A stretch of 64,000 nucleotides of DNA, from contig NZ_JBGBPY010000001.1 in NCBI RefSeq assembly GCF_041107455.1, positions 3,968,001-4,032,000 of the forward strand, in the 5' to 3' direction. The notes beneath the pieces are model-generated. The model worked only from the letters and a program-made list of their open reading frames with translations. It was not told the origin of the DNA and did not search any database. Made by a program: the position numbers and the translations under genes. Source of the DNA: Rhodanobacter humi. Lineage in GTDB: Bacteria; Pseudomonadota; Gammaproteobacteria; Xanthomonadales; Rhodanobacteraceae. This document shows positions 6,203 to 27,308 of the stretch, piece by piece (position 1 is the first letter of the stretch; each line of letters opens with the position of its first letter).

Positions 6203-6224
6203 GAGTTTCCCCTTGTGGATGCAC

Positions 6225-6254
6225 TGTTGAATGCGGCCAAGAAACTTAGGCCAC
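6225..6254 (+). mobile_element. Putative transposon left end with first transposase-binding site
   Basis: A TGT trinucleotide at 6225 is followed about 10 bp inward by the outermost copy (6233-6254) of a repeat with core CCAAGAAACTTAGGCCAC. Tn7- and Tn5053-type elements begin 5'-TGT and carry inner transposase sites. If this is the end, the 5 bp before it (TGCAC) would be the target-site duplication. I did not find a matching inverted end on the right, so the boundary is inferred. Confidence 0.45.
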
Positions 6255-6315
6255 AGTAACTACTTGAAAAACTTAGAAACGCGTGTCGGACTATCGCCGT
6301 GCTTGCCACCGGACC

Positions 6316-6427
6316 GTGCCAAGAAAGCTATGCCAGCGCGCGCTCGTGCCAAGAGACTTATACAACGCGCGCCGGCATGCCAAGAAAGTTATGCAATGGA
6401 ACTCAATCGACCAAGAAACTTTGGCCA
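6316..6427 (+). repeat. Four direct repeats at 30-31 bp spacing (probable TnsB/TniA binding sites)
   Basis: Copies start at 6316, 6346, 6377 and 6408, each about 20 bp with consensus GTGCCAAGAAACTTATGCCA. A fifth copy is at 6233-6254. The period of 30-31 bp equals about three helical turns, so all sites face the same side of the DNA. All are in the same orientation and lie just beyond the recombinase-like gene, the expected place for the sub-terminal transposase sites of a Tn7-like element. The stretch 6203-6445 contains no gene. The repeats are too short and too divergent, with spacers of only about 10 bp, to be a CRISPR array. Confidence 0.65.
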
Positions 6428-6445
6428 CTGAGTTGACCAAGGCGG

Positions 6446-7366
6446 CTAGCTTTCGCGAAACAGCTTGAGTGACTTCATCGCGGGTGTCGCTCCGCGAAGG
6501 TCCGACGTGTTCCGGTCGATGACAAATGCGCATCGCCACCCGCCAGCAGTCCGGATTTGGTCCACGGTAGCTCCGGCACGCGCCAAATCCATGGCACCCC
6601 CAACGCGGGGAGAGTAGGCAGTGAAGTACCCAATGAGGCCAGCCGCCTGGGCCCGTCGACGAAAGATACGGCTGAGCTCTCGCGATCTCAGAGCAAGCGA
6701 CGAGGCGTCTTCCGGTCGCTTAGGCCGCCCACCGATTGACCTAACAAGCGGGCCGTGCTGAATACCCATCGCTTCGCACCAACGAAGGACTCGCCTCAGG
6801 GTGTCCGGCGAGATCCATCGCGTATCGGAGTATGCAAATGCCGAACCGTTTTCAGGTATGAAGCGAACTTGGCCACTCCCGTCGGCGGATTCGATGATGT
6901 GCTCCCGCCAAAGCCCGACAAGTTCCGATGGCTTGAAGAGCGTGTCGAGAGCCAGAGCCAGCAAAGCACCGTCGCGAAGTTCGTGCAGAGAGTCGCCGAG
7001 GGTAGCCAAGACCTTAGCGACGTTGGCCGCATTCAATTCGTCGGCTTGCGAACGTTCACTCTGTCCACTGAGCTCAAGCTTCGCCATCAGTTGGCCCCAA
7101 CGAGGCTTCCACGATCGCTGCTTTGACGGAGGGATGAATCCTCGGGCTTCGTGAGCTTGACCTACGCTGTAGAGGAGGCGCCTGATCGTAGAGCCTTTAA
7201 GGCCTTCGTCGATCGCATCCTCCAACCAAGCCGCGACTTGGTCCTCGGAAGCAGGGATCGGCGTCACCTCCATCCGCTGGCACCACGAAAAGTACCTCGC
7301 TAGATCTGACTCAATAGCGATGCGTGTCCGTTCACTGTGGCTATCCAGATGTTCATAGAGAGTCAT
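6446..7366 (-). CDS. Tyrosine recombinase-like protein of the transposition module (catalytic residues substituted)
   Basis: A 306-residue protein with a SAM-like N-terminal core-binding domain (about 1-100) and a phage-integrase-type catalytic fold (about 110-300). The landmarks are recognisable but altered. The first-Arg motif reads FKPSELVGL, with Lys145 for the usual Arg. The HxxR box reads YSPR, with Tyr251 for His and Arg254 kept. GGW with Trp277 is present. The expected catalytic tyrosine position in DRNTSDL is Asn286. The gene overlaps tniQ by 14 bp and is the last gene of the operon, where Tn5053-like elements carry their resolvase. It may be an inactive or DNA-binding-only recombinase. 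Confidence 0.8.
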   Translation of the reverse strand: MTLYEHLDSHSERTRIAIESDLARYFSWCQRMEVTPIPASEDQVAAWLEDAIDEGLKGSTIRRLLYSVGQAHEARGFIPPSKQRSWKPRWGQLMAKLELSGQSERSQADELNAANVAKVLATLGDSLHELRDGALLALALDTLFKPSELVGLWREHIIESADGSGQVRFIPENGSAFAYSDTRWISPDTLRRVLRWCEAMGIQHGPLVRSIGGRPKRPEDASSLALRSRELSRIFRRRAQAAGLIGYFTAYSPRVGGAMDLARAGATVDQIRTAGGWRCAFVIDRNTSDLRGATPAMKSLKLFRES

Positions 7367-8717
7367 GGGCGGTTCCTTGCTCGGTGGTCACGGGAAGCTG
7401 GTAGCCGATACGGACATGCAGCGCAGGTTCGAAAGAAACCAGAGCGATCGGCCGGCCAAGAAGCAGCGCGAAGTGGGACTGCTCACGCTCGGATCGGATG
7501 CACTCGACTGTGGCGCGAATGTTGTCGATGGCATAAAGCGAAGTCAGATGCGAAAGGGCATGCGCGAGCACCTTCGCGGACCGCGACTGCATCGCCCACA
7601 AGGTGAGTTCGTCCATCGGTGTTAGCCGATCCGCGCCCATGGTTGCTTCCGGCGGTGTATAGGCAGCAAGTAGCAACTGCCGTCCGACACTTTTTCCGCT
7701 CGCGACAGATGCATTCGCGGCCGATGCCGGAACCCTATCAGGATTGATGGTCACGATTGGAACGCCAAACACAGAGATGCTGGTCGAACTCACCTCAACC
7801 GTGGTCGCCGAGAGGTTCAACGCCTCGAGCTGGCGTCTGGCATTTAATGCATACGCTACGACTCGATCGCAGTGTTCCTTGAGGACAGGAAAGGGAGGGC
7901 CGTGCCGCAAGAATGTTGGCTGCTGCCACGCTCGCAGGATCGCTCCGACTTCCTCGTTGCTTGTCGCATGCCCGATAGAGTGTTCGTCGAACCTAGACTG
8001 GGCGAATGGAGAGGAGGCGCAATGCTCGTCGTTGCTCGGAGGAAAGGTATTTTGAGAGACGAAACTGTAACCCTCCCGCATATAGAGGCGACCCGCGGGA
8101 AGAAGGCGAGTCGTCTTTCTTGTTCGACCCGCAGAGTCAAGATACTGGTGAATCGCTCGAGTCACCTTCTCGCTGGGCCACTGATGCATGCCGAGTAGCG
8201 CTTTGTTGCGTTGGTAGTGATCAACCCCACAGGGACAGTGAAGAAGTCGGAAGTTGGCACTGCGCCCCTTGTGCGGCAGTAATGAGCGTCCACACGTACA
8301 ATTTTTAACAAGGCTGTCTCCGTGCCACGGACAGGTCGTGATCCACGGCAACTGGTGGAGCATGGTGTGAAATCCATACGCGAGACATTGGCGGCAGCCA
8401 CGCAGAAAGGTTGGGTGAACCTCAGATTTGTCGCTATAGGGATGCCAGTCCTCCCAATGGTGCGGAAGTAGGTCATGCTCCCGCCCCCAAAGCGATGCCT
8501 CCCAGTCGTCCATCTCTTTCCATGGAACGATTCCGCCGCGGAGCCCCGCCTGAATCGCGGGAGTTGTCTTGAGCACTTCGGGCAACTGCGTCAGCCAAAG
8601 GCCATTGAGCCGAGAAAGTCTGTAGGCGCGTCCAAAAGAGGAGATGTAGGGAACCTGTGCAAGGTCGCCACCGATAAGCCCTTGGATCTCGGTATGTGCT
8701 GCATTGTGTGTATTCAT
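7353..8717 (-). CDS. tniQ: TniQ-family transposition target-site protein
   Basis: A 454-residue protein with the TniQ/TnsD zinc-finger signature: Cys108-x2-Cys111, His117/His121, then TTCPWHG with Cys129 and His132. It is followed by two further Cys-x-Cys pairs (140/142 and 161/163). TniQ proteins bridge the AAA+ ATPase to the target DNA and are needed for transposition of Tn5053, Tn7 and CRISPR-associated transposons. The gene overlaps the ATPase gene by 4 bp upstream and the recombinase-like gene by 14 bp downstream. The product is longer than minimal TniQ and may combine target binding in its C-terminal half, as TnsD does. Confidence 0.9.
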   Translation of the reverse strand: MNTHNAAHTEIQGLIGGDLAQVPYISSFGRAYRLSRLNGLWLTQLPEVLKTTPAIQAGLRGGIVPWKEMDDWEASLWGREHDLLPHHWEDWHPYSDKSEVHPTFLRGCRQCLAYGFHTMLHQLPWITTCPWHGDSLVKNCTCGRSLLPHKGRSANFRLLHCPCGVDHYQRNKALLGMHQWPSEKVTRAIHQYLDSAGRTRKTTRLLPAGRLYMREGYSFVSQNTFPPSNDEHCASSPFAQSRFDEHSIGHATSNEEVGAILRAWQQPTFLRHGPPFPVLKEHCDRVVAYALNARRQLEALNLSATTVEVSSTSISVFGVPIVTINPDRVPASAANASVASGKSVGRQLLLAAYTPPEATMGADRLTPMDELTLWAMQSRSAKVLAHALSHLTSLYAIDNIRATVECIRSEREQSHFALLLGRPIALVSFEPALHVRIGYQLPVTTEQGTAHDSL

Positions 8718-9667
8718 CCGCGCAGCTGCCTCGCGCGCGAAAATTCCAGCTTCAAGTAGCCGGCACGCGTGATGGCCTCCTTGATGCTCTCGTAGGAGAA
8801 CTCTCGAAAGACTTCCTGGCCGCCTGCGATATGAACCAGCAAGCGCTTGACGGCCAGCTCAAAAATCATCATGGGGAAGTCGCTCTGGCCGTTAAGATTT
8901 GCCTCCTTTCGGATCTCGTCGACGGCCTTCACGAATTTCTGCGCATCACTGGCGAAGCGCCATCCCTTTTCGTACGCCTGAGGCGCGAAGTACGCGCTAA
9001 ACGGGACACCATCGTGTTCCATGGCGTCGTAGCGACCCAGCGCTTCCGCAATTTCAGCAACGCCGACCAGGCCGCGAAAGGTGTGATCCGCCATAAAGAA
9101 GCGGCGGACAACGTGCGGCGGCATGTCATCGATCCGGCAGCGCCGGTTATCCTTTTCAGCCGAAGAGTCGTCCGACTGATTGACGAACACGCAGAAGAGC
9201 CGATACCCGTCCAGGTTTACGCCATCGTCGATATTGGCGAGGTACTCATAGTCATCCTTGCTCAACCGCTGGGCTTCATCGATGAACAAGATGAATCGGC
9301 GCGCCCCCATCTGCTCGGATTCGGCTGAGATCCGGTCGACGATGTGTGAGAGGCGATCAATCGCTGCGGCACGCGGATGGGACGTAAGGTTGAGCGCTCC
9401 TTGGATCACCTTGTAAAAGACATTGTCCGATCCGTTACTCCGCCGCGGCATGCTCACCCACGCGGTCGGCGTGGGCTGGTTGAGCCAGCTGGGGTGCGAG
9501 CGAAGGTAGCGGGACGCGGTGGATTTTCCGTCTCCGGACCGCCCGGCCACTTGAATGCCTCGGTAGCCATCCTCCAGCGCGATCAAAATTGCCTCGGCCA
9601 GGAGAATCGTCGGCCGGGTGGCGACTTCGGGACGCCCTTCATCTTTGAACATGGGGTGCGTGCTCAT
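8714..9667 (-). CDS. TnsC/TniB-type AAA+ transposition ATPase
   Basis: A 317-residue AAA+ protein with Walker A GRSGDGKST (42-50) and Walker B FILFIDEAQ (125-133), followed by a sensor-1-like strand LFCVFVNQ. ATPases of this type polymerise on target DNA and link target selection by TniQ to the transposase. The gene lies 3 bp after the transposase gene and overlaps tniQ by 4 bp (ATGA). Gene order and length fit TniB of Tn5053 or TnsC of compact Tn7-like elements. Confidence 0.93.
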   Translation of the reverse strand: MSTHPMFKDEGRPEVATRPTILLAEAILIALEDGYRGIQVAGRSGDGKSTASRYLRSHPSWLNQPTPTAWVSMPRRSNGSDNVFYKVIQGALNLTSHPRAAAIDRLSHIVDRISAESEQMGARRFILFIDEAQRLSKDDYEYLANIDDGVNLDGYRLFCVFVNQSDDSSAEKDNRRCRIDDMPPHVVRRFFMADHTFRGLVGVAEIAEALGRYDAMEHDGVPFSAYFAPQAYEKGWRFASDAQKFVKAVDEIRKEANLNGQSDFPMMIFELAVKRLLVHIAGGQEVFREFSYESIKEAITRAGYLKLEFSRARQLRG

Positions 9668-9670
9668 GGA

Positions 9671-11545
9671 TCAGTCCTTCACGTGGTCAAAAGAAACGCG
9701 GCCAGTGAGCGGCGTCTCCATGGAGGGTTTCGCGCCTTGAGGAACGGCGGGGTCGGAAAACGACACGGTGATCGCCCCGCTGGTGGTGAGTTGCATCAGG
9801 CGAGCGATCTGATCAGCTGCGTTCGCGCGGCCTTCTTGGCAGCTCTTGAGCGTGAAGGCTGCGTAGGCGGAAATCGCGCTGTGCGCGCCGCGGATTTCCA
9901 GTTCACCACTCCGGCTCAGCTTGAGAATGCGACGACGCATGGTGATGTCGTGGCGATGGATGTTCCAGGGCGACGACGCGGTCAACGTGCACACGTGGTT
10001 GAGCGATTCGTCAATGAGCACCAGCGTGCGCAAATCTTCCAGATCGATCTGGGCTTTGTAGTGACTACCCAACAGGTCCCAGTTCTTGTCGAGAGTAGGG
10101 TGGCGATAAACGACACCCATAAAGCGCACGTGGACGGGTTTATTGTGGCGCTTGGAGCCGCGAAGCCTGACCGTACGAATTTCAGAGGTCAGTGCCTTGG
10201 CATCCAGTTCGTTGTGCGGTGGTGACGGCCAGAAATGCGGGGTATTGGGGTAGTTGAGAAGGATGTCGATCGGGCTGCGATTTTGCCGAGCGGGCAACGG
10301 CGTGATGTTGTAGCTGGTCATGATCACGTCCATGACGTCTTCCAGTGCCTGGAAAGAGATGGGGTGATCTGTGCTTCGCCATTCGGAGACGGGCGTGGCC
10401 TTTTCCCCGAGGTGACGTGTCGGGATGTAGCCCCCGGGCAAATCGCGGAGTGCACCGATTTCCAGGTGGTTGAAGAAGTGCTCGACCGCGGGCCTCCCCT
10501 CCGGCGTGTGCGGTTTGCCCAAGTGCAAGATGCCATCGTAATTGCCCACCCACGCTTCGAGGGGCAGACTCGCCTTATGCGCCAAGGCGTTGTCCATCGC
10601 CGTGACCCGGCCACTCATGGCCCCGAACTCTAGGTTCTGCGGCATGGTCGCACCCGGCTCGTAGTTCATATCGGGGACACAAAGCGCCCGTGGAGTCCAC
10701 GGGCGCAGGGAGGACGCATAACATTGAGCGACATCGAGGGCGGTGTATCCGCGCCCGAAAACGATCTTCCATGCCAACACAGCGGAGGAGTCGACCTCAA
10801 CGACAACCAGAACCCAGACTTTTGAAATCTTGAGCTTGACGGGTTCCCCGCGTGCGTTGGGCACTTCCAGAGTGAAGTGCACATCTTTGCAGTGGGCATC
10901 AAATTCACAGCGGTCGTACGGTTGGCGATGGAACAGCTGGCTGAACGACTGGATCTTGGGCTCAGGCAAAGTCGTTGCGTCGGGGTTGCCGGCAACGAGT
11001 GCGTCTTTGCGCATGTCCCTGATGTAGCGAGCAAACGCTCGCCTTCCCTTGTCTTTCTGGCCCAGCGGCCAACAGTTGTTGCCGAAGCGTTTCGAGACGA
11101 TTCCGCGAATCTCTCGCATCAACCGGTTGAACGAGGGCGGAAGTGTTCCGGGCGGCAGGGGCGCACTGAAAGCGCCGAGCAGGTCCCGGATTTCGGGGAG
11201 CACGTTCAACAGGGACTTGAGCGCATAGGGCGTACCCCGGGTTGGAACGGAAGCAACCATTTCCGAGGTTTGGCGCGCACCCCAGGGCAGGCATGCCCGA
11301 TAGCCGTACAGTCCTCCGTCCGGGGCAATCGAGAAGGCCTTCGCAATGACGCTGGTGAGCGTCACTCGGTTGACCCCGTGGTCTATCGCCGCGTGACGCA
11401 CCGAGGCACCGAGTATGTAGGCTTGCAAGGCATCGCAGCGCGACTGGAATTGCGCCCGATGGCAATCGAGAACGAGCCTTTGATCTAGACGCTTCCAGCC
11501 GAGCGCGTCGGCCATTTGTGCAGCAGAGACTTCAGTAGCCATCAT
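9671..11545 (-). CDS. TnsB/TniA-type DDE transposase (Mu transposase C-terminal type)
   Basis: A 624-residue transposase. The rve-type catalytic core carries a DDE triad that I place at Asp216 (CEFDAH), Asp318 (TAMDNALAH) and Glu355 (PAVEHFF). It is followed by a beta-barrel Mu-C-type region and an N-terminal HTH-rich part (1-150). The start at 11545 overlaps the stop of the upstream gene as ATGA. An in-frame extension to 11629 exists but would overlap that gene by 88 bp. The enzyme would bind the repeats at 6233-6427 and join 3' ends to target DNA. All catalytic residues appear intact. Confidence 0.93.
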   Translation of the reverse strand: MMATEVSAAQMADALGWKRLDQRLVLDCHRAQFQSRCDALQAYILGASVRHAAIDHGVNRVTLTSVIAKAFSIAPDGGLYGYRACLPWGARQTSEMVASVPTRGTPYALKSLLNVLPEIRDLLGAFSAPLPPGTLPPSFNRLMREIRGIVSKRFGNNCWPLGQKDKGRRAFARYIRDMRKDALVAGNPDATTLPEPKIQSFSQLFHRQPYDRCEFDAHCKDVHFTLEVPNARGEPVKLKISKVWVLVVVEVDSSAVLAWKIVFGRGYTALDVAQCYASSLRPWTPRALCVPDMNYEPGATMPQNLEFGAMSGRVTAMDNALAHKASLPLEAWVGNYDGILHLGKPHTPEGRPAVEHFFNHLEIGALRDLPGGYIPTRHLGEKATPVSEWRSTDHPISFQALEDVMDVIMTSYNITPLPARQNRSPIDILLNYPNTPHFWPSPPHNELDAKALTSEIRTVRLRGSKRHNKPVHVRFMGVVYRHPTLDKNWDLLGSHYKAQIDLEDLRTLVLIDESLNHVCTLTASSPWNIHRHDITMRRRILKLSRSGELEIRGAHSAISAYAAFTLKSCQEGRANAADQIARLMQLTTSGAITVSFSDPAVPQGAKPSMETPLTGRVSFDHVKD

Positions 11546-12216
11546 TCGGCCCCCCGCGTCAGGCGACTGTGGCTGCTGAGGGGCAATTCCTTTTGAAACC
11601 CCAGCCAACCCTCGTGCAGCAAGGTACACGTAGCCATGCGCACTACATCTGCCGGGATTTGGCTCAACGACCCTTCAATTTGCTGGAAGGAGAGTGAGGT
11701 CACGACCGGAGAGAACAGCTCCTTCACCCTCCCGGCAATGGAGGGGACTTCGGCACGGCGCCGCGCTGCCTGGATATGAGGCAAAAGTCGCAGGTAGTTG
11801 GCAATGGAATGCGCGCGATGTTGCAACTCATGCTCAAAGACGAACTTCAGCGAAAGGCCCGCGCGGTGCGCGGCTTGGTCCCAAAGCGTGGCTTCCTTGG
11901 GTTGCAGGCCGTCATTCACACGGTCGCACTCCTCAATTCCTTGCACTGCCCAAAACGTTTCGGCTCCGTCGGTTCCGCGTGTCCAAAAGTCGAGTTCGAT
12001 GGTGCGGCCCGAATACAGTTCCAGATCGCGCGGTCGCTCGACGACGGCTTGAGTTGTCGGGTCAAACTCGTTCTCAAGCCAAAAAGCTAGGCGGGCGACG
12101 CCGACCAATGCGACAGCACGCCCCGCCTTCGGGGAGTAGGTGATGTAGACATCCTCGTTGCTGAGCTCCCGTGAGGTCAGACTTCGCGGATCGAATGGAA
12201 GGGCTTCAGATGACAT
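11542..12216 (-). CDS. TnsA-like nuclease-fold protein (key residues apparently missing)
   Basis: A 224-residue protein, first gene of the transposition operon. GGAG 8 nt upstream supports the ATG at 12216 over a 109-codon in-frame extension. It shows the TnsA N-terminal pattern: a helix ending ENEFDPTTQAVVERP (about 48-62), then a strand RTIELDFW with Asp76. In active TnsA a Glu lies about 11 residues before the FDP and a Lys follows a Val one strand after the Asp. Here those positions read Arg42 and AVQG (90-93). If correct, 5'-strand cleavage is lost and the element would transpose by cointegrate formation. The assignment rests on position and this partial motif match. Confidence 0.65.
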   Translation of the reverse strand: MSSEALPFDPRSLTSRELSNEDVYITYSPKAGRAVALVGVARLAFWLENEFDPTTQAVVERPRDLELYSGRTIELDFWTRGTDGAETFWAVQGIEECDRVNDGLQPKEATLWDQAAHRAGLSLKFVFEHELQHRAHSIANYLRLLPHIQAARRRAEVPSIAGRVKELFSPVVTSLSFQQIEGSLSQIPADVVRMATCTLLHEGWLGFQKELPLSSHSRLTRGAE

Positions 12217-12785
12217 GAATTTTCTCCAAGTGGATACGTCGACCCTGCTGGTGGTGGCAGATCGATCAGGAGCAAATTGAGCTTGGGGGCGCGTGCCCGA
12301 CACGAGCAGCCGCCGGGCAAATGGCCCGGTTACGGATACCGTCGGTTTTGGGGTGCGCGATCGAGCGCAGCGACGTCTAGCCGCTACGACTTCGTATCGG
12401 TGGGCGCCACTGAGCGCGTCGCGGAAGTTTGGTTCTGCGACGATGTGCGGGTGCGGAGAGATCTTGAGGCACGAGTTTTCCCGATGCTTGCAGTCAACTG
12501 CTTGGCTCGAAACCAGGCAGCAGGAGCCGCGGCCGCCCGACAAGGGACGCCCGATGCTTGACTGGGATGGGGTATCGCGCAGAAAATGCGGGCGCTAGTG
12601 AGTACCTGCAAAATCAAAGCCCGTAGCGTTGGCGCGCTGCGGACTTTTTTTATGCGCACGAGAAAGGTGGCTAGCTAGTTTAGGCGTTCGAAGGGTTGGA
12701 TCCTCCTGCTTCGACGGGGTGATGGGTTGGTGGGTAGAAGCCCGACCACGGCTCGTTGAGCAAGTACTTCGGGGCGAGGTTGCGG
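12217..12785. other. 569-bp gap upstream of the transposition operon
   Basis: No gene with a credible start and codon pattern is visible. The operon promoter should lie here, close to 12216, but no clear -35/-10 pair stands out. The stretch has an 11-bp direct repeat CCCGATGCTTG (near 12480 and 12550) and the hairpin at 12621-12651. I see no inverted copy of the left-end repeats. Confidence 0.5.
12621..12651 (+). terminator. Intrinsic terminator-like hairpin
   Basis: CCGTAGCG pairs with CGCTGCGG (one T-G wobble) around a 6-nt loop and is followed by a run of seven T after AC. This reads as a Rho-independent terminator on the plus strand, yet no plus-strand gene precedes it. It may end an untranslated RNA or protect the region from read-through. 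Confidence 0.5.
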
Positions 12786-13037
12786 CTAGTCGGACTTGTT
12801 TGTCTGCTTCCGCGCATCTTCTAGCGCACACAAATATTCCGCGACCGCCTCGGAGGTCGCGAACCATCCGCGTCGACCCTGCATCTTGATGAGTTGCACA
12901 GGCAACTGACCGCGGCTCCTCGCCTTGCGGATGGCACCGACGCTGACATACCTCAACACGGAGGCAAGGTCTGTCAGCGTCAGTACATCACCGAATCTTG
13001 TTCGGAGATCAGATTCGCGTTCAGCTTGAGTTGCCAT
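12786..13037 (-). CDS. Small helix-turn-helix DNA-binding protein (excisionase/AlpA-like)
   Basis: An 83-residue protein. LTLTDLASVLRYVSVGAIRK forms a winged-HTH (MerR/HTH_17-like) core, followed by a wing containing RRGWFATSEAVAEYL. That is the arrangement in excisionases and AlpA-type activators, which bend DNA at attachment sites or activate mobile-element promoters. It lies between the transposition module and a perfect 20-bp inverted repeat 83 bp upstream of its start. It may therefore regulate itself or the module from that site. Confidence 0.65.
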   Translation of the reverse strand: MATQAERESDLRTRFGDVLTLTDLASVLRYVSVGAIRKARSRGQLPVQLIKMQGRRGWFATSEAVAEYLCALEDARKQTNKSD

Positions 13038-13119
13038 CTGTTAAATGTCTTCTGAAGTCTTGGTCTGCCGCGCTGGGTCACGCGCCAGCCAAACCTAAGG
13101 CCTCCCAGTGACTTGATCC

Positions 13120-13164
13120 AGAGCAATGTTTTGACCTGCAGCGCGCAGGTCAAAACATTGCTCT
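13120..13164. repeat. Perfect 20-bp inverted repeat with 5-bp centre
   Basis: The left arm AGAGCAATGTTTTGACCTGC (13120-13139) is exactly mirrored by 13145-13164 around AGCGC. It lies in the 165-bp gap between the divergent HTH gene (start 13037) and the unknown gene starting at 13203. There is no T-run, so it is not a typical terminator. It could be an operator, a recombination site or a DNA hairpin recognised by a mobile element. Confidence 0.85.
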
Positions 13165-13202
13165 AGACTTCACGCCCCTTCGGTGATAGACGCGAAGAAT
13201 TG

Positions 13203-14099
13203 ATGAGAACCCCCTTACGCATCCTGGCAACCCGACTTTGGGTGTGGCACGCGTGGCACGCTTCTGGGGCCGCCAAGGTGGGCGACTTCATCGACCGGTT
13301 CGACGCGTATGCGTCGCCGAGGAGTGGCTATGGCTTGGATTCCAGGCTTTTGAGAGGGTGGAAGCGTGGAAAGCTGTCTGTCAGCAAGGCCTGGGTCAAC
13401 CGAGTCGAGAAGGAGATCCCGGGGACGAAATACGTCCATGCGATTGAGACATTGTTAATACCTGAGCCTCTGGGCGTCAGCGCTGCTCGAAGTGCGGTCT
13501 CGCAATCCCTCATGACTGAGCTCAGCGAAGGCCCACGGAGGGTGGTCCTCGACGGTAGCGCACATACGTATTCGCCGTGGACAGTTCCTGCTGAGACCGC
13601 GCCGCGCGGTGACTTTGTCAAGTTCGTGGTGATTTTGGTGCTGGTTCGTGAAGCGTTCGCCTGCGCTGACTTCGATCTTCTTGATCTACATGTGCGGGAT
13701 CTGTACACGCTATTGCCGTGTATCGCCCAGCTTGACTGGGTGCGCCCGGATGTTGACCTGCTACTGCAGTGCATCGAGGACATGATGGCTCGTTCCCGAT
13801 GGGGGCCTTCGCGCGTGGAGATCGATTGGAAGGTATTTCGCAGTCAAGTTGAGAATCCCCAGCCCTGGGATGGCCATCCGCCGTGGATTGTTTCAACCCG
13901 CGGCGAGAGGGCCGAGAGCAGGTCGAATCAATTGTTACGGCGTCCGGTGCCCTTGTTCGAAGGGATAGAGCCTTTGGCGGAATACGTCCGCCCACAGGAG
14001 GATGAGGTACCGCAGATCCAGACTAGGCGGGGCGACTCCTTTTGGGACAGGTTGATCAATCGCATGGAGAGCCTGCCAAGCAAGAGAGAATCACCCTAG
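13203..14099 (+). CDS. Hypothetical protein, island gene
   Basis: A 298-residue protein of unknown function. The N-terminal 90 residues are basic and Trp-rich (LWVWHAWHASGAAKVGDFI) and could be a small helical DNA-binding domain, because LLRGWKRGKLSVSKAWVNRV resembles an XRE-like helix pair. The middle contains a hydrophobic alpha-helical stretch FVKFVVILVLVREAFACADF, and the C-terminus is acidic and Pro-rich. The TTG just before the ATG could extend it by one codon. Its lower GC content compared with flanking core genes supports acquisition with the island. It is followed at once by a decayed SseB-like fragment. Confidence 0.6.
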   Translation: MRTPLRILATRLWVWHAWHASGAAKVGDFIDRFDAYASPRSGYGLDSRLLRGWKRGKLSVSKAWVNRVEKEIPGTKYVHAIETLLIPEPLGVSAARSAVSQSLMTELSEGPRRVVLDGSAHTYSPWTVPAETAPRGDFVKFVVILVLVREAFACADFDLLDLHVRDLYTLLPCIAQLDWVRPDVDLLLQCIEDMMARSRWGPSRVEIDWKVFRSQVENPQPWDGHPPWIVSTRGERAESRSNQLLRRPVPLFEGIEPLAEYVRPQEDEVPQIQTRRGDSFWDRLINRMESLPSKRESP

Positions 14100-14138
14100 A
14101 CGGTTGCTTTGACGTGGCGTGTTGTGTTTGCCCCCATG

Positions 14139-14434
14139 CCACGCCGAAGAGCGTTGCATTCCTTCTCGAAGGCCGTGCGCTTACTGTTGTTGCTAACGGG
14201 TCACTTGCGGCAGACGAGCAAATCGGCGTGTGCCTGCCAGGCGCGCCGCCCGGTATCCCAATCAGTGCGGAGTTGTGCGCTGGTGCGACATTGGCGACTC
14301 CGCTGACCACTCATTTGCGAGCGTGCCATGAGGTCAGGGCGCCTCAGCGATGGTTGGTGCTAAAGGATGGCGCCCTTACGGACGTTCGATGGCTCTTAGA
14401 AGCCGATCTTGCTCTACGGCATCCAGTGCGCTGA
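14139..14434 (+). pseudogene. Remnant of an SseB-family gene
   Basis: The plus-strand translation contains FLLEGRAL, then AADEQIGVCLPGAPP and LVLKDGAL. This parallels ALLEGRPL...GANEQVGVCLPSVP in the intact SseB-family protein encoded at 15647-16393. The N-terminal half of the family is missing, no ribosome-binding site precedes it, and the reading frame overlaps the XRE gene on the other strand. I read it as the decayed C-terminal half of a second copy. Confidence 0.6.
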
Positions 14435-14693
14435 AGGCACGAATCATCCGGGCCAGGCGTTCATCCTCGGCGAAGAGGTAGGCGGTTGGTACCTTCAAGG
14501 TCGCGGCGAGGCGAGCGATGGTCGCCATGTCTGGCTCATGGATGCCCTTCTCGTAGCGATTGATGCGTGTGCTAGCCACGAAAAGATCCAGACCGGCAAG
14601 GATGCCCAGTTCTTTCTGGGATAGACCGGCATCCTGACGCGCCTGCTTCAAGCGTTTGCTGAAGATGGATGACGGTTCGCGAGGGCGAAGCAT
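14376..14693 (-). CDS. XRE-family transcriptional regulator
   Basis: A 105-residue protein with a classical HTH_3 domain: FSKRLKQARQDAGLSQKELG, then STRINRYEKGIHEPDMATIARLAATLKVPTAYLF. A short C-terminal helix (LDAVEQDRLLRAIE) probably mediates dimerisation. It resembles phage-type repressors and stand-alone antitoxins. It is divergent from the 121-residue protein gene, and a perfect palindrome (14751-14767) lies 58 bp upstream of its start. That suggests autoregulation and control of the divergent gene. Confidence 0.88.
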   Translation of the reverse strand: MLRPREPSSIFSKRLKQARQDAGLSQKELGILAGLDLFVASTRINRYEKGIHEPDMATIARLAATLKVPTAYLFAEDERLARMIRAFSALDAVEQDRLLRAIERP

Positions 14694-14750
14694 GGAATTC
14701 TCGTGGAGGAGGATCTCCTACGAGATTCATTGCTTTGCCGTGCCGTCGAT

Positions 14751-14767
14751 ACTACGATATTCGTAGT
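14751..14767. promoter_or_regulatory. Palindromic operator for the XRE regulator
   Basis: ACTACGA-TAT-TCGTAGT is a perfect 17-bp palindrome in the divergent intergenic region. A second imperfect copy sharing TACGAG/CTCGT half-sites lies at about 14699-14723, over the regulator's own leader. Paired operators of this type are usual for XRE autorepressors. Confidence 0.6.
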
Positions 14768-14821
14768 TTCGCCGATAGCCTCGCACTTGGTCACCGTACC
14801 GACCGATGGGAAGCCAGACCC

Positions 14822-15187
14822 ATGCCCCTGCAACTGGTATTCGAAGATCAGTGGTCCATCCGCGTGCCGATGGACGATCGGCTCGAGGAAGCGCTTGGGG
14901 TACAGCGTGAGCGGGCCTGCCGCGACGAGTTCGACCTCGCATTCGTTGAGCGCCTATCAGAATGCTTTGCGAACTCGCTTGCAGCATGCCTCGATATCGA
15001 CCTGCAGCTACCGACCGACAGCCAAGTGAAGTACGCCATGGACATCGCTCGCGAACTGGGTGTGTCGTTGCCAGCCGATGCGCTACGTTTCCGCGGTGCA
15101 GCGCACGATTTCATTGACCGCTTCGAGAGTGCATTCCGCGCCAGCCGCGAACGACGCCGGCGCATGACGGGCCTCGCCGATGGATAG
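14822..15187 (+). CDS. Hypothetical protein with FRG...DFI motif (paralogue remnant at 38243)
   Basis: A 121-residue protein with no family I can name. The C-terminal half LPTDSQVKYAMDIARELGVSLPADALRFRG(x)3DFIDRFE aligns with a truncated protein encoded at 38243-38458 (LPPTERQ...IPMEAHAFRG(x)3DFI), so it belongs to a small accessory family repeated in this genome. No signal peptide or membrane helix is present. The ATG at 14822 is chosen from length and position; an in-frame extension to 14669 would cross the operator region. It probably forms a unit with the downstream BPSL0761-family and SseB-family genes. Confidence 0.65.
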   Translation: MPLQLVFEDQWSIRVPMDDRLEEALGVQRERACRDEFDLAFVERLSECFANSLAACLDIDLQLPTDSQVKYAMDIARELGVSLPADALRFRGAAHDFIDRFESAFRASRERRRRMTGLADG

Positions 15188-15267
15188 CTCCGCCCGGGTG
15201 ACCTGCAAACGGCGTCAAAACAAATCGTAGGGTGTCGACCACACGCATCACCACGGATCAGTTGATC

Positions 15268-15537
15268 ATGACCCTACCTTACGAGCGTACTTGGGCAGTC
15301 GTCGAAACACGGCATTTCCTGACAGAGGTGCTGACCAATCGACGTGTTCCTGGCGCCGTTCGCGAGAAGGCGCGCACCCTGTTGCGCCACTATCCAAGCC
15401 CGAGCGATGTCTTCCATGCGGGGTGGCAAGCGCTTGCCGATCCCCACCTAATCCTGGAGCCAGTCTTTGACATGAGCATAGACGGATCGCCGTCACCCAA
15501 CTGGTCAACGCCACGAGTACCTCGCACCGTGAAATGA
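15268..15537 (+). CDS. BPSL0761-family protein
   Basis: An 89-residue product beginning MTLPYERTWAVVETRHFL and containing a VREKARTLLRHYPS block. These are the two conserved segments of the small BPSL0761 family found in accessory regions of beta- and gammaproteobacteria. The function is unknown. A GTG start at 15232 would add 12 residues, but the family starts at the MT-x-PYERT motif. It sits between two accessory genes on the same strand, 80 bp and 109 bp away. Confidence 0.7.
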   Translation: MTLPYERTWAVVETRHFLTEVLTNRRVPGAVREKARTLLRHYPSPSDVFHAGWQALADPHLILEPVFDMSIDGSPSPNWSTPRVPRTVK

Positions 15538-15646
15538 CCGTATGAACAAATGTGTGACAGCCCGCGTGTAGCGGCACGTTTTCTCAGCCGTATTTCCCGC
15601 TGCCCATGGAATCGATCTAGCAAATGACCAAGATGACGACCGCCCC

Positions 15647-16393
15647 ATGCCCAAGGTAGCCGGATCACCACTTGACGCTTTGTTTGAAGCAGCGAGGGTT
15701 GCCTCGACCCCCGCAGATATCATGGATGCCGAGCAGGCCTTCTATAAGGCACTGATGGAGGCCACGGTGTACGCGCACGTCCCTACCGAACCCGCGCCAC
15801 CCGATCGCATCCGGTTCGTTCAGTTCATCAGGCCCGACAACGGACAGACGGTGTTACCGTTTTTCAGTGATCGGGAACAGGCGGAGGTGGTGGCAGCCGC
15901 GGGCAAGGTGATGATCGTGGCCATGGCCGGGCGGCGGCTCTTTGAGCTGACCCGCGGTGCTACCTTGATGCTCAACCCTAACCGTGATCAGCTGACGTTC
16001 TATCCGCCCGAGATCGGCGCTCTGTTGGAAGGCCGCCCGCTTGGCGTCTTTTCTAAAGAAACGCTGGGGGCGAATGAGCAGGTCGGAGTGTGCTTACCGT
16101 CCGTACCGACGGATGCCTTGGTGCTGGCGCTCCGCGCTCTCTATGAGCGTGAACCCTCCGTGCGAGCCGGCTATCTGGTGGAGGCCCACCGTGGGCCGGA
16201 CGATTCGGACGTTTTCTTGCTGCTGACCTTGGTAGTGACGAAAGGGAATACCGAGCGGATAGTGCAGCTCACCACGCTGGAGCTGAGCTCCGTGTCACCG
16301 CCGTTGGCGCTTCCCGTCACGATGATGTGCGTTCTTCCCGATGAGCCGCTGCCCGAGCTATGCCATCACGGTATCCAGTTCTACGGAACCTGA
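15647..16393 (+). CDS. SseB-family protein
   Basis: A 248-residue protein with the SseB N-terminal domain: an early PLDALFEAARV helix, AFYKALMEATVYAHVP, TVLPFFSDREQAEV, LFELTRGATLMLNP and PPEIGALLEG. A C-terminal SseB_C-like domain follows (about 150-248). E. coli SseB was named for altered serine sensitivity; the biochemical role is unclear. The gene ends inside a repeat that recurs at 38456 with the same last nine codons. A decayed relative lies 1.3 kb upstream (14139-14434). Confidence 0.82.
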   Translation: MPKVAGSPLDALFEAARVASTPADIMDAEQAFYKALMEATVYAHVPTEPAPPDRIRFVQFIRPDNGQTVLPFFSDREQAEVVAAAGKVMIVAMAGRRLFELTRGATLMLNPNRDQLTFYPPEIGALLEGRPLGVFSKETLGANEQVGVCLPSVPTDALVLALRALYEREPSVRAGYLVEAHRGPDDSDVFLLLTLVVTKGNTERIVQLTTLELSSVSPPLALPVTMMCVLPDEPLPELCHHGIQFYGT

Positions 16394-16507
16394 AGCGCCA
16401 GGGTCGTTGCTCACCGCCGACACCCCAAGACGTCCGCGGCGTCTCGAAGCTGGCATTGAGTACGCGATCCCATGACTTGTTGGTGATTAGCGATCGTTAT
16501 CGGGGGT
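16367..16507 (+). repeat. Dispersed repeat, copy 1 (about 140 bp)
   Basis: It starts within the last nine codons of the SseB-family gene and ends with TTATCGGGGGT. Blocks shared with copies at 38456-38595 and about 53235-53347 are GCTCACCGCCGAC, AGCTGGC(A/G)TTGAG, CGCGATCC, GGTGATTAG and GTTATCG. An inner AGACG/CGTCT pair could form a short hairpin. All three copies are plus-oriented and lie at or just after the 3' end of an accessory gene. Confidence 0.8.
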
Positions 16508-16589
16508 GAACCACGCAGCCGCGAATCGCCCAGTCAGATCCCTGGCTCGCCCCCGGGGGATCCTGCTTCACCGACCCTTCCGCACGCCT

Positions 16590-17114
16590 TCAGAAATTGA
16601 AAGCTATGCCGATCAGCAGCATCGTTTCGCCACGGTTGGGCTCATGGAGGGAACCGTTGGAGATGTGGCGGATCTGGAAATTCCAATGGTGGCCCTGCCA
16701 ACCGAGCGTACTCACGAACTCGTAGGCGCTGCTCAGCGCCTGGGTCCGACCGCTGTGCATCGCGGGCTGGAAACTGAAGTACAGCGACCGGAACCAGCCG
16801 ATGGCACCGCCGTAGCGGATTCGTGCGCCGCCGGCGATCAGCCATATCGGATCCGTCGCGCGGTATGGGCTGTATCGGTATCGGTCCACGTTGCGGCCGC
16901 CAATCCAGCCCATGGATACGTCCGGTGACCATGTGAAACGACTGGTGCCGATATGTCGTTCGTCAAACACGGCTTCGATGAATACGGCAGAAGTGCTCGC
17001 GCAGTCCATGTAACTGCGTCCAGACTCGATGCCCAGCTGCTTTTCCGCCAAGGTGCGAGTGGGGACCAGGGCAAGACCGAGCCCAACGGCAAGCGCAACG
17101 GATTGGCCGGTCAT
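16590..17114 (-). CDS. pagL: Lipid A 3-O-deacylase (PagL family)
   Basis: From the ATG at 17114 the product is 174 residues with a hydrophobic leader (SVALAVGLGLALVPTRTLA). The C-terminal IRHISNGSLHEPNRGETMLLIGIAFNF carries the PagL His-x-Ser active-site pair, a downstream Glu and the final aromatic-ended beta-strand. PagL is an outer-membrane beta-barrel that removes the 3-linked acyl chain of lipid A. The start is uncertain: in-frame ATGs at 17204 and 17381 exist, but the longer forms add a basic segment unlike any PagL. Confidence 0.82.
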   Translation of the reverse strand: MTGQSVALAVGLGLALVPTRTLAEKQLGIESGRSYMDCASTSAVFIEAVFDERHIGTSRFTWSPDVSMGWIGGRNVDRYRYSPYRATDPIWLIAGGARIRYGGAIGWFRSLYFSFQPAMHSGRTQALSSAYEFVSTLGWQGHHWNFQIRHISNGSLHEPNRGETMLLIGIAFNF

Positions 17115-17414
17115 CCGGTATGCCGCGTCCTTGACGATGCGATGTGCTGCTGCTCGAACAGCAACGTGGCTCCGGCGACATGCCTGCTTTCCGCCTGAAT
17201 TCATGGACTTTGTCCGCGTATTTCGTAAGGCGAATGCTCTTTTGGCCGCTGTCCCCCTGTCTTTCACGAATTGACCCGTCGTTGCACGAACCTCGTGACG
17301 AGCCACTTTTCCGACCGCGCCGGGATTGGTCCGGACACACTCAAGCCGCGGCCCGTTTTCGCGTAGCATCGTGCGCCGCATGGGTTGCGGTTCGATCCGC
17401 CAGGAGGAGTGGCC

Positions 17415-18659
17415 ATGCTTCAGTCTGTGCGTGGGTCGTTGGCGTGCATGCTCGTCGGCCTGCTGGCGGGTTGTGTGACAGCGCCGCGATTGCCGCCGCC
17501 GCCGGCGCTGATCTCCCGTGCGGCGCCTGCCGGCTTTCCACCTGACATCCGGTTGCTGACCATTGATCGCGAAGACTTCCTCCGACGTTCACCGAATGTG
17601 TTCGGGCGCCTGGCTCAGAACGCGACCGGGGGCAGCATCAATTACCTGGTGCTTTCCGGTGGCGGCTCCGGAGGTGCCTTCGGTGCGGGCGCGCTGGTCG
17701 GCCTGAGCGAGGCACATGCCCGCCCGCAATACGACGTCGTCACCGGGGTGAGCGCCGGGGCGCTGCTGGCGCCATTCGCGTTCCTCGGCCCGGCCTGGGA
17801 CCCGCAATTGAAGGATGCCTTTGGTGGTGGCCATCGGCTGGAGTTGCTGCACAGCAAGGCTGGCAGCGTGCTGGCGCGCCTGCTGTTCCCCCGCGGGACC
17901 ATGGAGCACAACGCGCTTGCGCGGCTCGTGGATCGCTATGCCACCGAGGCAATGCTGCAGGCGATCGCCGCCGAGTGGCGCAAGGGGCGCCTGCTGTTTG
18001 TCGCCACTACCGACCTGGACAAGCGCGAGACGGTGCTGTGGAACATGGGCGCCATTGCCGCGCAGGGCGGGGCGCCGGCGTTGAAATTGTTCCGCGAGGT
18101 GCTCATGGCCTCGGCGAGCGTGCCTGGCATCTTTCCGCCGGTGCTGATCCGGGTGCGCGAGGGCGATCACGAGTATGACGAGATGCACGTGGACGGCAGC
18201 GTCACGACTTCGCTGTTCGCCGCCCCCCACGCTGCGCAGTTGTTGCCGGTCGGAGAGGTAGGCAAGCTTCCGGTGAACCTCTACGTCATCGTGAACGGCA
18301 AGCTGGCCGGGGAGCCGCAGAAGACGCCGCTCAACACCATCGACATCCTCTCGCGCAGCTTTGATGCCGACCTCACCTACAAGATGCGCGAGGGCGTGCT
18401 GCTGGCCCTGGACTATGCACGCCAGCAGCACATGCATTTCCGGCTCACCGAGATCCCGCCGACCTACCCGAGTCCAAGCTTCATCGACTTCAGCCCCCAG
18501 TCCATGCGCACACTTTTCGATTACGCCGAAGGCTGCGCCGCCGGCGGCCAACTCTGGGAGACTCCGGAGTACTCGATCCGGCGCAACCTCGCGCGCATCG
18601 CCCGGAACGGAGGGCCGGCGCAGGATTGCCCGGGCTCGCCTTCTGCGGACACCCCCTGA
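17415..18659 (+). CDS. Patatin-like phospholipase, lipoprotein
   Basis: A 414-residue protein. AGGAGG 7 nt before the ATG fixes the start. The leader ends in the lipobox LLAGC, so it is a predicted lipoprotein. The patatin fold is clear: oxyanion loop LSGGGSGGAFGAG, nucleophile elbow GVSAG and the DG of the Ser-Asp dyad in HVDGSV. Patatins hydrolyse acyl ester bonds of phospholipids. The gene stands alone, 180 bp before the efflux operon on the same strand. Confidence 0.92.
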   Translation: MLQSVRGSLACMLVGLLAGCVTAPRLPPPPALISRAAPAGFPPDIRLLTIDREDFLRRSPNVFGRLAQNATGGSINYLVLSGGGSGGAFGAGALVGLSEAHARPQYDVVTGVSAGALLAPFAFLGPAWDPQLKDAFGGGHRLELLHSKAGSVLARLLFPRGTMEHNALARLVDRYATEAMLQAIAAEWRKGRLLFVATTDLDKRETVLWNMGAIAAQGGAPALKLFREVLMASASVPGIFPPVLIRVREGDHEYDEMHVDGSVTTSLFAAPHAAQLLPVGEVGKLPVNLYVIVNGKLAGEPQKTPLNTIDILSRSFDADLTYKMREGVLLALDYARQQHMHFRLTEIPPTYPSPSFIDFSPQSMRTLFDYAEGCAAGGQLWETPEYSIRRNLARIARNGGPAQDCPGSPSADTP

Positions 18660-18838
18660 TACCCGTCACGTCCCCGGCGGGATCGTGCAGTGGTGAGCCA
18701 GATGTGCCGATGGCTCGTGATGCACCTCGTGCGCATTTTGGGACAAGCCGGATGATTTTGGACAAGCTGGGCCCTGGCCTTTGCCGGACCATGCGGCTGC
18801 CGAGGCTGATGTGCGCCCGACAAGCGTAAGGCTCCACC

Positions 18839-20326
18839 ATGTTCCCGTTCGGCCGCATCCCCATTCCAGATCGCCGCTGCTTCCGTACGACGTCGGCCGT
18901 GCTGGCCGTCGCGCTGCTCGCCGCGTGCGCCAGCCCTCGTGGCCTGCGTACGCAAGCCGTGCCGGTCGAGGTGAATGCGCTACACGTTTCGCGCAGTCTT
19001 GCCGTCGTGCGGCTTTCACCGGCTGCGTGGCCAAGCGGCAAATGGTGGCGCGACTACGGCGACCCGCAGCTCGATGCGCTGATCGGCGCCGCGCTGCGCG
19101 ATCAGCCCGGCCTGCGCGTGGCCGAGGCGCGGGTGCGTGCGGCCGGAAGCCTGGCGGCGATTGCCGGTGCGGTGGGGCACCCGAAGGTGGGCGCGGGCGC
19201 GCACAGCACGCGCGAGCGCTTCAGCGACCACGGCACGGTGCCGCCACCGGTCGCCGGCAGCTGGCAGACCGTCAACGATGTCACGGTCGGCGCCGCATGG
19301 GAGCTGGATTTCTGGGGCAGGAACCGTGCCGCCGTGGATGCCACGCTCGACCGCGAGCACGCCGCCGAGGTGGATGTGCAGGCGGCGCGCCTCATGCTCA
19401 CCACGGCCATCGCGCGCACCTACCTGCGCCTGGATGCCGCCTATGCGCAGCGTGACCTGACTGGGAGAACGCTCGTGCAGCGCGAACAAATCCTTGCGCT
19501 CACGCGCAAGCGCGTCGCTGCCGGACTGGATTCGCAGCTCGAACTCACCCAGGCCGAGGCCGCGCTGCCGGCGACACGCGAGCAGGTCGCCGCGATCGAC
19601 GAATCCATTGCACTGCTGGACAACCAGCTGGCCGCGCTGGCGGGGCACGGCCCCGACGACGGCAAGGCGATCCAGCGCCCGCAGCTGGCCGCGATCGGCC
19701 CGATCAATTTGCCCGGCAACCTGCCGGTCGAACTGATCGGCCGGCGTCCGGACGTGATCGCCGAACGTTGGCGCGTGGAAGCGGCGGGCAGGGATATCGA
19801 CGTGGCACGCGCGCAGTTCTATCCCAACGTCAGCCTGGGCGCCTTCGTCGGCCTGCAGCGCCTAGGCTTCGATGATTTCCTGGATACCGGCAGCCGCATC
19901 ATGGGTGTCGGCCCGGCGATCTCGCTGCCGATCTTCGACGGCGGCCGCCTGCGCGGGAACCTTGGCCTTCACCAAGCCGCCTACGATGCCGCCGTGGAGG
20001 CCTACAACGCCACGGTCATCGGCGCCGTGCACGATGTGGTCGACCAACTGGTATCGCTGGACGCCGTGGCCCGGCAGCGCGACGAACAGGCACAGGCGCT
20101 GTCGCTCAGCGAACACGCCTACGAGCTTGCGCAGCACCGCTACCGTGCCGGCCTGGCCAGCTATCTGCAGGTGCTGTCGGCCGAGACCCAGGTGCTCGCA
20201 CAGCGCCAGCAGACGCTGGTGCTGCAGACGCGCGGACGCGAACTGCGTCTTGCGCTGATCCGTGCGCTGGGCGGTGGCTACGTCCCCGATGCCACCGCTA
20301 CGCCCGGGCTCGCCCACCGGCGTTGA
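18839..20326 (+). CDS. NodT-family outer-membrane efflux lipoprotein
   Basis: A 495-residue TolC-like outer membrane factor. The leader ends in the lipobox LLAAC. The mature start contains WWRDYGDPQLDALIGAAL, characteristic of NodT/OprM proteins, and two long helical repeats follow (GAAWELDFWGRNRAAVDAT and later LPIFDGGRLRGNLGLHQAAYDAAV). It forms the trimeric outer-membrane channel of a drug efflux pump. Thirty-one bp separate it from the adaptor gene. Confidence 0.93.
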   Translation: MFPFGRIPIPDRRCFRTTSAVLAVALLAACASPRGLRTQAVPVEVNALHVSRSLAVVRLSPAAWPSGKWWRDYGDPQLDALIGAALRDQPGLRVAEARVRAAGSLAAIAGAVGHPKVGAGAHSTRERFSDHGTVPPPVAGSWQTVNDVTVGAAWELDFWGRNRAAVDATLDREHAAEVDVQAARLMLTTAIARTYLRLDAAYAQRDLTGRTLVQREQILALTRKRVAAGLDSQLELTQAEAALPATREQVAAIDESIALLDNQLAALAGHGPDDGKAIQRPQLAAIGPINLPGNLPVELIGRRPDVIAERWRVEAAGRDIDVARAQFYPNVSLGAFVGLQRLGFDDFLDTGSRIMGVGPAISLPIFDGGRLRGNLGLHQAAYDAAVEAYNATVIGAVHDVVDQLVSLDAVARQRDEQAQALSLSEHAYELAQHRYRAGLASYLQVLSAETQVLAQRQQTLVLQTRGRELRLALIRALGGGYVPDATATPGLAHRR

Positions 20327-20357
20327 TCGCGCCGCTTCCTCATGCCGGAACCTTGCC

Positions 20358-21539: not shown

Positions 21540-21563
21540 CCACGGCATGACGGGGACTACGCC

Positions 21564-23120: not shown

Positions 23121-23449
23121 ACATGCCCTCCCGACTGGACGCCAGGGATGGAGGCTCGCCGTCGCGACAGCGGTACGCGCCCATGGCGTCATCCGCCGTG
23201 CACGCCTGGAATCCGCCACGTCGGGCACGGCGGATGACGCATGGACGCGGGCAGGAAAGCCCGTCCACCCGCAACATTTTTGAACAACCCGTGCCCGCTC
23301 CGTGCAAGCCGCCCGCCATGAGGCGGCCTACGCTGATCCCGCGCTGTGCCGACGTGGCGGCATGGCCGCAAGGACCGGGCTACCCGCTCCCGGTGGCTTT
23401 CTCCCCAGCCAGGGATGGCCTTTCCCATCACTCGCGGATTGAGAACGAC
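23121..23449. other. Intergenic region with long inverted repeat
   Basis: The gap between the MFS gene and wrbA contains the hairpin annotated at 23181-23244. It is followed by a weaker hairpin (GGGC-AGGAAA-GCCC region near 23250-23270) and a short T-run near 23277, which may terminate the efflux operon. The wrbA promoter should lie in the remaining 170 bp; no clear hexamers are visible. Confidence 0.5.
23181..23244. repeat. Long inverted repeat (REP-like or terminator stem)
   Basis: GCGTCATCCGCCGTGC (23186-23201) is perfectly mirrored at 23225-23240. The pairing extends outward by CCATG with one bulged base, giving arms of about 20 bp around a 23-nt loop. This is long for a terminator and may be a palindromic intergenic element. 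Confidence 0.75.
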
Positions 23450-24049
23450 ATGGCCAAGGTACTGGTGTTGTACTACTCGACCTACGGGCACATCGAAGCG
23501 ATGGCGAATGCCATCGCCGAAGGCGCGCGCTCGACAGGCGCCACGGTGGATATCCGCCGCGTGCCGGAAACCGTGCCGCCGGAGGTCGCACGGAAGGCGC
23601 GCTTCAAGCTCGACCAGGCGGCGGCGCTGGCCGACATCGCCACGCTGCCGGACTACGACGCCATCATCGTCGGCACGGGCACGCGCTTCGGTCGCATCGC
23701 ATCGCAAATGGCGGCGTTTCTCGACCAGGCTGGCGGCCTCTGGGCGCGCGGCGCACTGCACGGCAAGGTCGGTGGAGCCTTCAGTTGCAGCTCCACCCAG
23801 CACGGCGGGCAGGAAACCACGTTGTTCTCGATCATCACCAACCTGCTGCATTTCGGCATGGTGATCGTCGGCCTGCCGTACAGCCACACGGGACAGATGA
23901 CGCTGGACGAAATCGTCGGTGGCGCGCCCTATGGCGCGACCACCGTGGCCGGCGGCGACGGCTCGCGCCAACCCACCGCGATTGAGCTGAGCGGAGCCCG
24001 CCACCAGGGCGAGCTGGTGGCGCGCACCGCCGCGAAGCTGGCCGGTTGA
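23450..24049 (+). CDS. wrbA: NAD(P)H:quinone oxidoreductase, type IV (WrbA)
   Basis: A 199-residue flavodoxin-fold protein: [19 protein letters not shown] forms the FMN phosphate-binding loop, [10 protein letters not shown] and [15 protein letters not shown] are WrbA signatures, and [10 protein letters not shown] contributes to the isoalloxazine site. WrbA carries out two-electron reduction of quinones, avoiding semiquinone radicals. The start is chosen at the family N-terminus. It lies 3 bp before aceE, so the two genes are probably co-transcribed. Confidence 0.95.
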
Positions 24050-24052
24050 GGC

Positions 24053-26749
<2,697 letters not shown>

Positions 26750-26756
26750 TTCAGGG

Positions 26757-26790: not shown

Positions 26791-26816
26791 CGACGATGTA
26801 TGCACGGCCGGCTGGC

Positions 26817-27278: not shown

Positions 27279-27308
27279 GGCGGTGGCTCCTTGAACGGGT
27301 GGGTGCAA

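Follow-up and report, generated by a model that had tools for sequence, protein, structure and literature searches.

The Tn5053 family of transposons follows a plan without TnsA and with a resolvase of its own. Its members are Tn7-related and have been described as res site hunters, aiming at the resolution sites of plasmids (PMC11406308, in excerpt). IS1202-family elements such as ISAjo2 have been termed dif site hunters. According to excerpts of Harmer et al. 2023 (PMC10132070) they use a TnsB-like transposase, produce 5-bp duplications and insert on the XerC side of dif or dif-like sites, and they are 1.5-kb one-gene elements lying 5 bp from the XerC site, with no TnsC, TniQ or counterpart of the F protein discussed below. 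In Tn6022, Tn7-like TnsA, TnsB, TnsC and TniQ, and additionally TnsE, are accompanied by an inactivated tyrosine recombinase gene placed after tniQ. Its product TnsF is a proven target selector that has a dead tyrosine recombinase domain and works with a short TniQ; excerpts of Faure et al. 2023 (PMC10293859) describe a protein of 498 aa in which zinc fingers and tandem core-binding domains are combined with a partial catalytic domain, and give comM as the target.

The locus studied here lies in a stretch of 64,000 nucleotides of Rhodanobacter humi DNA, which we call the window, and it shares something with each of these systems. As in Tn6022, an inactivated tyrosine recombinase gene, whose product we call F, follows tniQ. 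However, F has 306 aa, has no zinc-finger N-terminal region and can be aligned with Cre along nearly its whole length, the target of its group is dif, where chromosome dimers are resolved, and neither known copy is inserted in comM. Compared with the IS1202 family the element is far from a single transposase gene, as it spans 95,764 bp and has five transposition genes. Compared with the Tn5053 family it also aims at a recombination site, but this site is dif, a gene in the TnsA position is present and the fifth gene encodes a dead Cre-like protein in place of a resolvase. Cre-type recombinases match the profile of F over most of its length, but three of the five catalytic residues are replaced in F. 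The literature searched, which included excerpts of PMC8649781 and PMC12907356, yielded no Tn7-like element at dif. Our main reading, to which we give a probability of about 0.5, is that this is a 95.8-kb Tn7-like transposon of a dif-homing group in which TniQ and the dead Cre-like F mark the target.

Transposition operon and element ends

The tns module occupies 6446-12216 on the - strand as close-packed ORFs, and the five-gene content that an earlier note had read from the sequence is confirmed:

11542..12216, - strand: TnsA-position protein, 224 aa, nuclease triad unrecognisable
9671..11629, - strand: TnsB, DDE transposase, 652 aa, with D244, D346 and E383
8714..9667, - strand: TnsC, AAA+ ATPase, 317 aa, AAA_22 match in Pfam
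7353..8717, - strand: TniQ, 454 aa; the core is conserved, and the C-terminal half differs from the one seen in 13 of 15 F-less relatives
6446..7366, - strand: F, tyrosine recombinase like Cre, 306 aa; three catalytic residues are lost, their places being taken by K145, Y251 and N286; candidate target-selection partner of TniQ

Neighbouring genes overlap by 4 nt (tnsC/tniQ) and 14 nt (tniQ/F), with a gap of 3 nt between tnsB and tnsC. A second copy of the module is present in Rhodanobacter lindaniclasticus DSM 17932 (G467). The true start of tnsB is probably near 11542, because tnsB of this second copy begins 28 codons later. The five ORFs are judged to be real genes, since the second genome has all of them at 84-97% protein identity (88-97% for the TnsA-position protein, TnsB, TnsC and F, 84% for TniQ) and dN/dS between the copies is 0.08-0.39 (TnsA-position gene 0.11, tnsB 0.19, tnsC 0.08, tniQ 0.39, F 0.32). 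Synonymous divergence of the TnsA-position gene (11542-12216 against L092:3231-4031) is 0.44 and that of its neighbours 0.11-0.18, as if this gene had been exchanged between elements.

Profile searches, which the earlier note had proposed as a check on its five assignments, bear them out in part. In Pfam, TnsC matched AAA_22 (E 3.8e-7), TniQ reached 20.4 bits (cut-off 27) and F reached 21.3 bits for Phage_integrase (cut-off 27.1), the latter two thus being below threshold, and neither a transposase model for the TnsB ORF nor a TnsA model for any of 18 TnsA-position proteins was matched. NCBIfam gave weak XerC/XerD matches for F, PADLOC nothing beyond TniQ, and searches of the PDB with profiles of the TnsA-position proteins and of TnsB nothing useful. 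The TnsB ORF can be assigned by its 17 relatives. All 18 aligned members have its D244, D346 and E383, and TnsC G42, G47 and K48 are likewise kept in 18 of 18, in agreement with the earlier reading of an intact transposase triad and intact ATPase motifs.

The first protein is TnsA by gene position only, and we name it accordingly because both a TnsA match in Pfam and a conserved triad are missing. The catalytic triad of Tn7 TnsA is an acidic/lysine nuclease triad, and no conserved counterpart exists in any of the 18 aligned members. The earlier description of a TnsA-like nuclease without catalytic residues thus stands for the residues, and for the identity by position. The protein looks degenerate throughout, and since this is common to all 18 it is not a special feature of the window element. 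Some accepted Tn7-like elements have no TnsA (excerpts of PMC11406308), so the missing triad does not exclude the element from this family. TnsB, TnsC and TniQ are encoded together as in Tn7-like elements, and we regard the operon, which lies at one end of a larger element, as a Tn7-like transposition module that looks intact.

A whole-genome search for inverted end repeats placed this element at G000:C1:3974228-4069991 (95,764 bp), with its left 58 kb inside the window and the remaining 37,991 bp beyond the window end. The following features belong to it:

6223..6227, no strand: left copy ACTGT of the target duplication; right copy at L067:14992-14996, outside the window
6228..6430, no strand: transposon left end, terminus TGAATGCGGCCAAGAAACTTAGGCCA and five TnsB-like sites at 6235, 6317, 6347, 6378 and 6409
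12217..64000, no strand: element interior (cargo), continuing to G000:C1:4069991, on the basis of both ends and the target duplication

The left-end repeats, of the type GCCAAGAAACTTA, span 6235-6430 in five copies and have their inverted partners at G000:C1:4069896-4069983. Both termini read TGAATGCG[G/A]CCAAGAAACTTAGGCCA, the right one at G000:C1:4069991 outside the window, and ACTGT flanks both as a perfect 5-bp duplication. Several transposase sites at both ends together with a 5-bp duplication are what Tn7-like elements have. A right end inside the window was ruled out, as the left-end sites have no inverted partner there. The related genome G032 is uninserted at this place; its match to the window stops at 6220, and its sequence at the joint is similar to the window flanks once these are rejoined. 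The five tns genes are the transposition engine of this ~96-kb element, which is inserted upstream of an FAD-SLDH-type gene, with a half-dif and an inovirus on the other flank.

The earlier note had proposed copy-in transposition without an evident resolvase. We do not regard this as shown, given the plain 5-bp duplication and a degenerate TnsA-position protein that all 18 members have. Additionally, F need not be a failed resolvase, because an inactivated tyrosine recombinase, TnsF, selects the target in Tn6022 (excerpts of PMC10293859). The plan was also called non-standard for Tn7 or Tn5053. A degenerate TnsA-position protein and a dead recombinase are indeed present in this Tn7-like module, but a dead recombinase in a Tn7-like operon had already been published as TnsF (same source, in excerpt). 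That account is extended here by the full length of the element, its target duplication and its target.

The interior holds a number of other features. Between the tns operon and the cargo lies a near-perfect inverted repeat (13117-13167; two 23-bp arms, 96% complementary, 5-bp loop), and small HTH proteins with HTH_17 and HTH_3 matches, possible regulators, are encoded just within the element (12786-13037 and 14376-14693). Cargo at 17385-26749 includes a patatin-like lipase, an outer-membrane efflux protein, an MFS transporter and a pyruvate dehydrogenase E1-like protein. Near the right end, still inside the element, a tyrosine recombinase gene is in two pieces (L067:11397-13682 and 13787-14680) with an IS3-type transposase-like ORF (labelled by eye) between them and a KfrA_N gene adjoining.

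F and its Cre-like relatives

A profile of F and its relatives matched Cre in the PDB nearly end to end with an E-value of about 1e-31 (XerD 7e-8). The tree places both F proteins among Cre-like rows, on a long branch with modest support. At the five catalytic places, which are Arg, His, Arg, Trp and Tyr in an active Cre-type recombinase, the window F has K, Y, R, W and N and the F of the second copy K, Y, R, W and S. The first Arg, the His and the Tyr are thus lost, three of five residues and the same three in both copies, and R, H, R, W and Y are intact in all 16 other rows of the alignment (15 different genes). F therefore lacks catalytic residues in both genomes, as the earlier note had it for the window, and we take it to be catalytically dead; its reading frame is open in both copies. 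A structural model built from the two sequences was unusable (mean pLDDT 40.5) and was set aside. A search of viral collections found no relatives.

The eight nearest relatives of F off plasmid-like contigs (41-44% identity) all lie 1.3-9.3 kb from dif. The next two, on plasmid-like contigs, are not near dif, and among six further stretches with weaker relatives one is. Repeat arrays, located by script, adjoin dif in 6 of the 8 nearest loci. Because these arrays are transposon-like, they suggest that the active Cre-like genes near dif ride in transposons and not in islands. The idea that these genes are integrases of dif-bounded islands was dropped, as no second dif-like site was present in the 20-50 kb fetched beyond. 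A second, inverted array was seen at one of the Cre-like loci, G325, and an exact-pattern search for it in G281, G348 and G337 found none. In G325 (L156, L123, L158) the array by dif has its inverted partner 77 kb off, near a tnsB-tnsC-tniQ set with a 608-aa TniQ. This is a second, distant Tn7-like lineage, an element of ~77 kb that reaches dif with the end opposite to its operon. Given G325 and the arrays at the Cre-like loci, Tn7-like elements at dif extend beyond the window group, and some carry active Cre-like genes.

The presence of F can be compared with the state of TniQ. A C-terminal half is common to TniQ of 13 of 15 F-less relatives (46-253 bits, leave-one-out), one further F-less relative with a short TniQ (L096) having been left out of the alignment. 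The two F-bearing TniQ proteins score -0.3 and -1.0 there, with cores at 146-147 bits. L093 (G035, -1.9) and L102 (G302, 8.2) also have no common C-terminal half, and no F follows their tniQ. In G035 an end-like array adjoins dif despite both absences. The overall pattern fits F having taken over target reading, without proving it.

dif beside the element and its relatives

A TnsB search over 233 genomes of Rhodanobacter's family gave a match in 25. Besides the window, the neighbourhoods of 16 of these and of one Xanthomonas plasmid were fetched. The earlier note had raised scattering of the genes in relatives as a problem for the module. This is not the case for the first four genes, which stand in the order A-B-C-TniQ in all 17 relatives that were fetched; it is the case for F, which follows tniQ in one of the 17. 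The plasmid set (L056:14136-19216) is a tnsABC-tniQ set of the window group on a conjugative plasmid of Xanthomonas campestris, with no F after tniQ.

dif was found in 18 of the 25 TnsB-bearing genomes, on the same contig as tnsB in 11 and on another contig in 7, and a dif search of the other 7 found none. The distance between tnsB and dif is 17-100 kb in 10 of the 11 same-contig genomes; the window genome is the exception, with 3.9 Mb along the contig as deposited, or 140 kb should the contig be circular. An initial reading that F-less loci have no dif, based on 12-32 kb around the tns genes of 16 such loci, was overturned by this wider search; none had been seen because the elements extend beyond these stretches, with dif at the end away from the tns genes. 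dif lies on the tnsA side in G035, G466, G023, G308, G470 and G348, like in the window element, and on the tniQ side in the more distant G325, G449, G486 and G434. Three F-less relatives share a terminus at their dif-side and tniQ-side ends with a perfect 5-bp duplication (G346 GCCGT, G466 ACGAC, G470 CTAAG), and the other 7 of the ten genomes in this test, the second F copy among them, were unmatched. The gap from dif to the terminus is 28-77 bp in 16 genomes, most termini having been picked by eye from repeat arrays. Homing to dif is thus a property of the group and not created by F, because F-less relatives also end near dif, three of them with perfect duplications. A preferred attachment site, typical of Tn7-like elements, is therefore present: dif for the group and a half-dif for the window copy.

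Two F-bearing copies are known. The second is the sole locus returned by a close-relative scan of the genome collection, from which records very near the window genome may have been left out. Its module is on contig C88 and its right end on C62. A search of that genome found a single dif, and the right end lies 67 bp from it, on the XerC side of this intact site. No target duplication was seen (2 of 5 bases match). The left flank is a DUF3653 phage gene; genes of this type are linked to Xer activation.

Outside the right end of the window copy, at 87 bp, lies ATTTGACATAATATACA, a stretch of 17 bp identical to the dif of the same genome at C1:30279. Beyond it come diverged sequence and then an inovirus-like prophage with Rep_trans and Zot (L067:15079 to L070:1258), and the half-dif appears to be a phage att that derives from one half of a dif. 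The XerC and XerD halves were assigned by comparison with the E. coli dif. This agrees with the assignment in excerpts of PMC10132070. The window insertion is on the XerD side of its half-dif, and of 16 other termini 15 lie on the XerC side. A scan of 429,855 bases, made up of the window, the neighbourhood to its right, G032 and the 16 tns neighbourhoods, gave two dif-like stretches with at most 9 mismatches in 28, each beside an F-bearing copy. In the same right-hand region, at L070:1991-4305, a KfrA-like coiled-coil ORF (by eye) adjoins an intact-looking gene of the phage-integrase family, followed by metal-resistance-like ORFs (by eye).

Proposed target reading by F and its alternatives

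In the proposed mechanism TnsB would cut and join the ends, which carry several TnsB-like sites, and TnsC would link TnsB to TniQ. TniQ would mark the target together with F, as a Cre-like recombinase that was domesticated after losing catalysis or along with it, with F binding dif or half-dif without cutting. Insertion would then follow ~60-90 bp from this site with the tnsA-side end facing dif. We infer the binding of F to dif, its contact with TniQ and its replacement of the TniQ C-terminal half as target reader. That the dead F helps to choose the landing place is probable. Several observations point this way: F is dead in both copies, whereas all 16 relatives compared have their catalytic residues; its frame is open, with a dN/dS of 0.32 and the 14-nt overlap with tniQ; dif or half-dif lies 67 and 87 bp from the right ends in both copies; 8 of 8 nearest non-plasmid relatives are 1.3-9.3 kb from dif; and the common TniQ C-terminal half is missing from both F-bearing copies.

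Other observations speak against this role. G346, G466 and G470 are at dif without F, so F is not needed for dif-homing in the group, and G035 has an end-like array by dif with neither F nor the common TniQ C-terminal half. The two copies also differ, one being 67 bp from the XerC side of an intact dif and the other 87 bp from the XerD side of a half-dif. The homing of F-less relatives fits a reading in which dif is read by TniQ alone, or by TniQ sensing XerC/XerD on dif. F would then go back to a gene for cargo or a resolvase that has decayed or found another use. IS1202-family elements reach dif by their transposase alone, perhaps touching XerC (excerpts of PMC10132070), and the active Cre-like genes near dif, several of them within transposon-like ends, are a cargo from which F could derive. 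However, F is open and under selection in both copies and overlaps tniQ, and the TniQ C-terminal half is missing wherever F is present, though it is also missing in 2 of 15 F-less members. We consider this explanation a serious one that is nonetheless at clearly less than even odds.

It is also conceivable, but improbable, that F shields the inserted element by covering dif or att and blocking Xer or Cre-type recombination. Both copies do adjoin sites used by Xer and Xer-using phages, but F sits in the transposition operon after tniQ. Common descent of F and TnsF, making this a Tn6022-type element, is very improbable: the place after tniQ and the inactivated recombinase are the same (excerpts of PMC10293859), but F has 306 aa against the 498 aa, zinc fingers and two core-binding domains by which TnsF is described there, is closest to Cre and to local Cre-like genes at 41-44%, and belongs to an insertion upstream of an FAD-SLDH-type gene and not in comM.

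Returning to F as a partner of TniQ, an evolutionary step may be added. Target recognition could have been handed from the TniQ C-terminal half to a dead Cre-like recombinase drawn from the active dif-side Cre-like genes. The TnsF principle would then have been invented a second time, independently, with dif as its target. We hold this tentatively, somewhat short of an even chance.

Most circular bacterial chromosomes have dif once. With its relatives in Xer-using phages and plasmids, it offers a large transposon an address that is both safe and portable, and its use by Tn7-like elements of roughly 50-100 kb would add a further attachment site to the known ones. If it is true that F reads dif, a recombinase would have become a target selector in an independent instance. 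The origin of new selectors would then be open to testing, since a single bacterial family holds the dead version together with active and F-less relatives.
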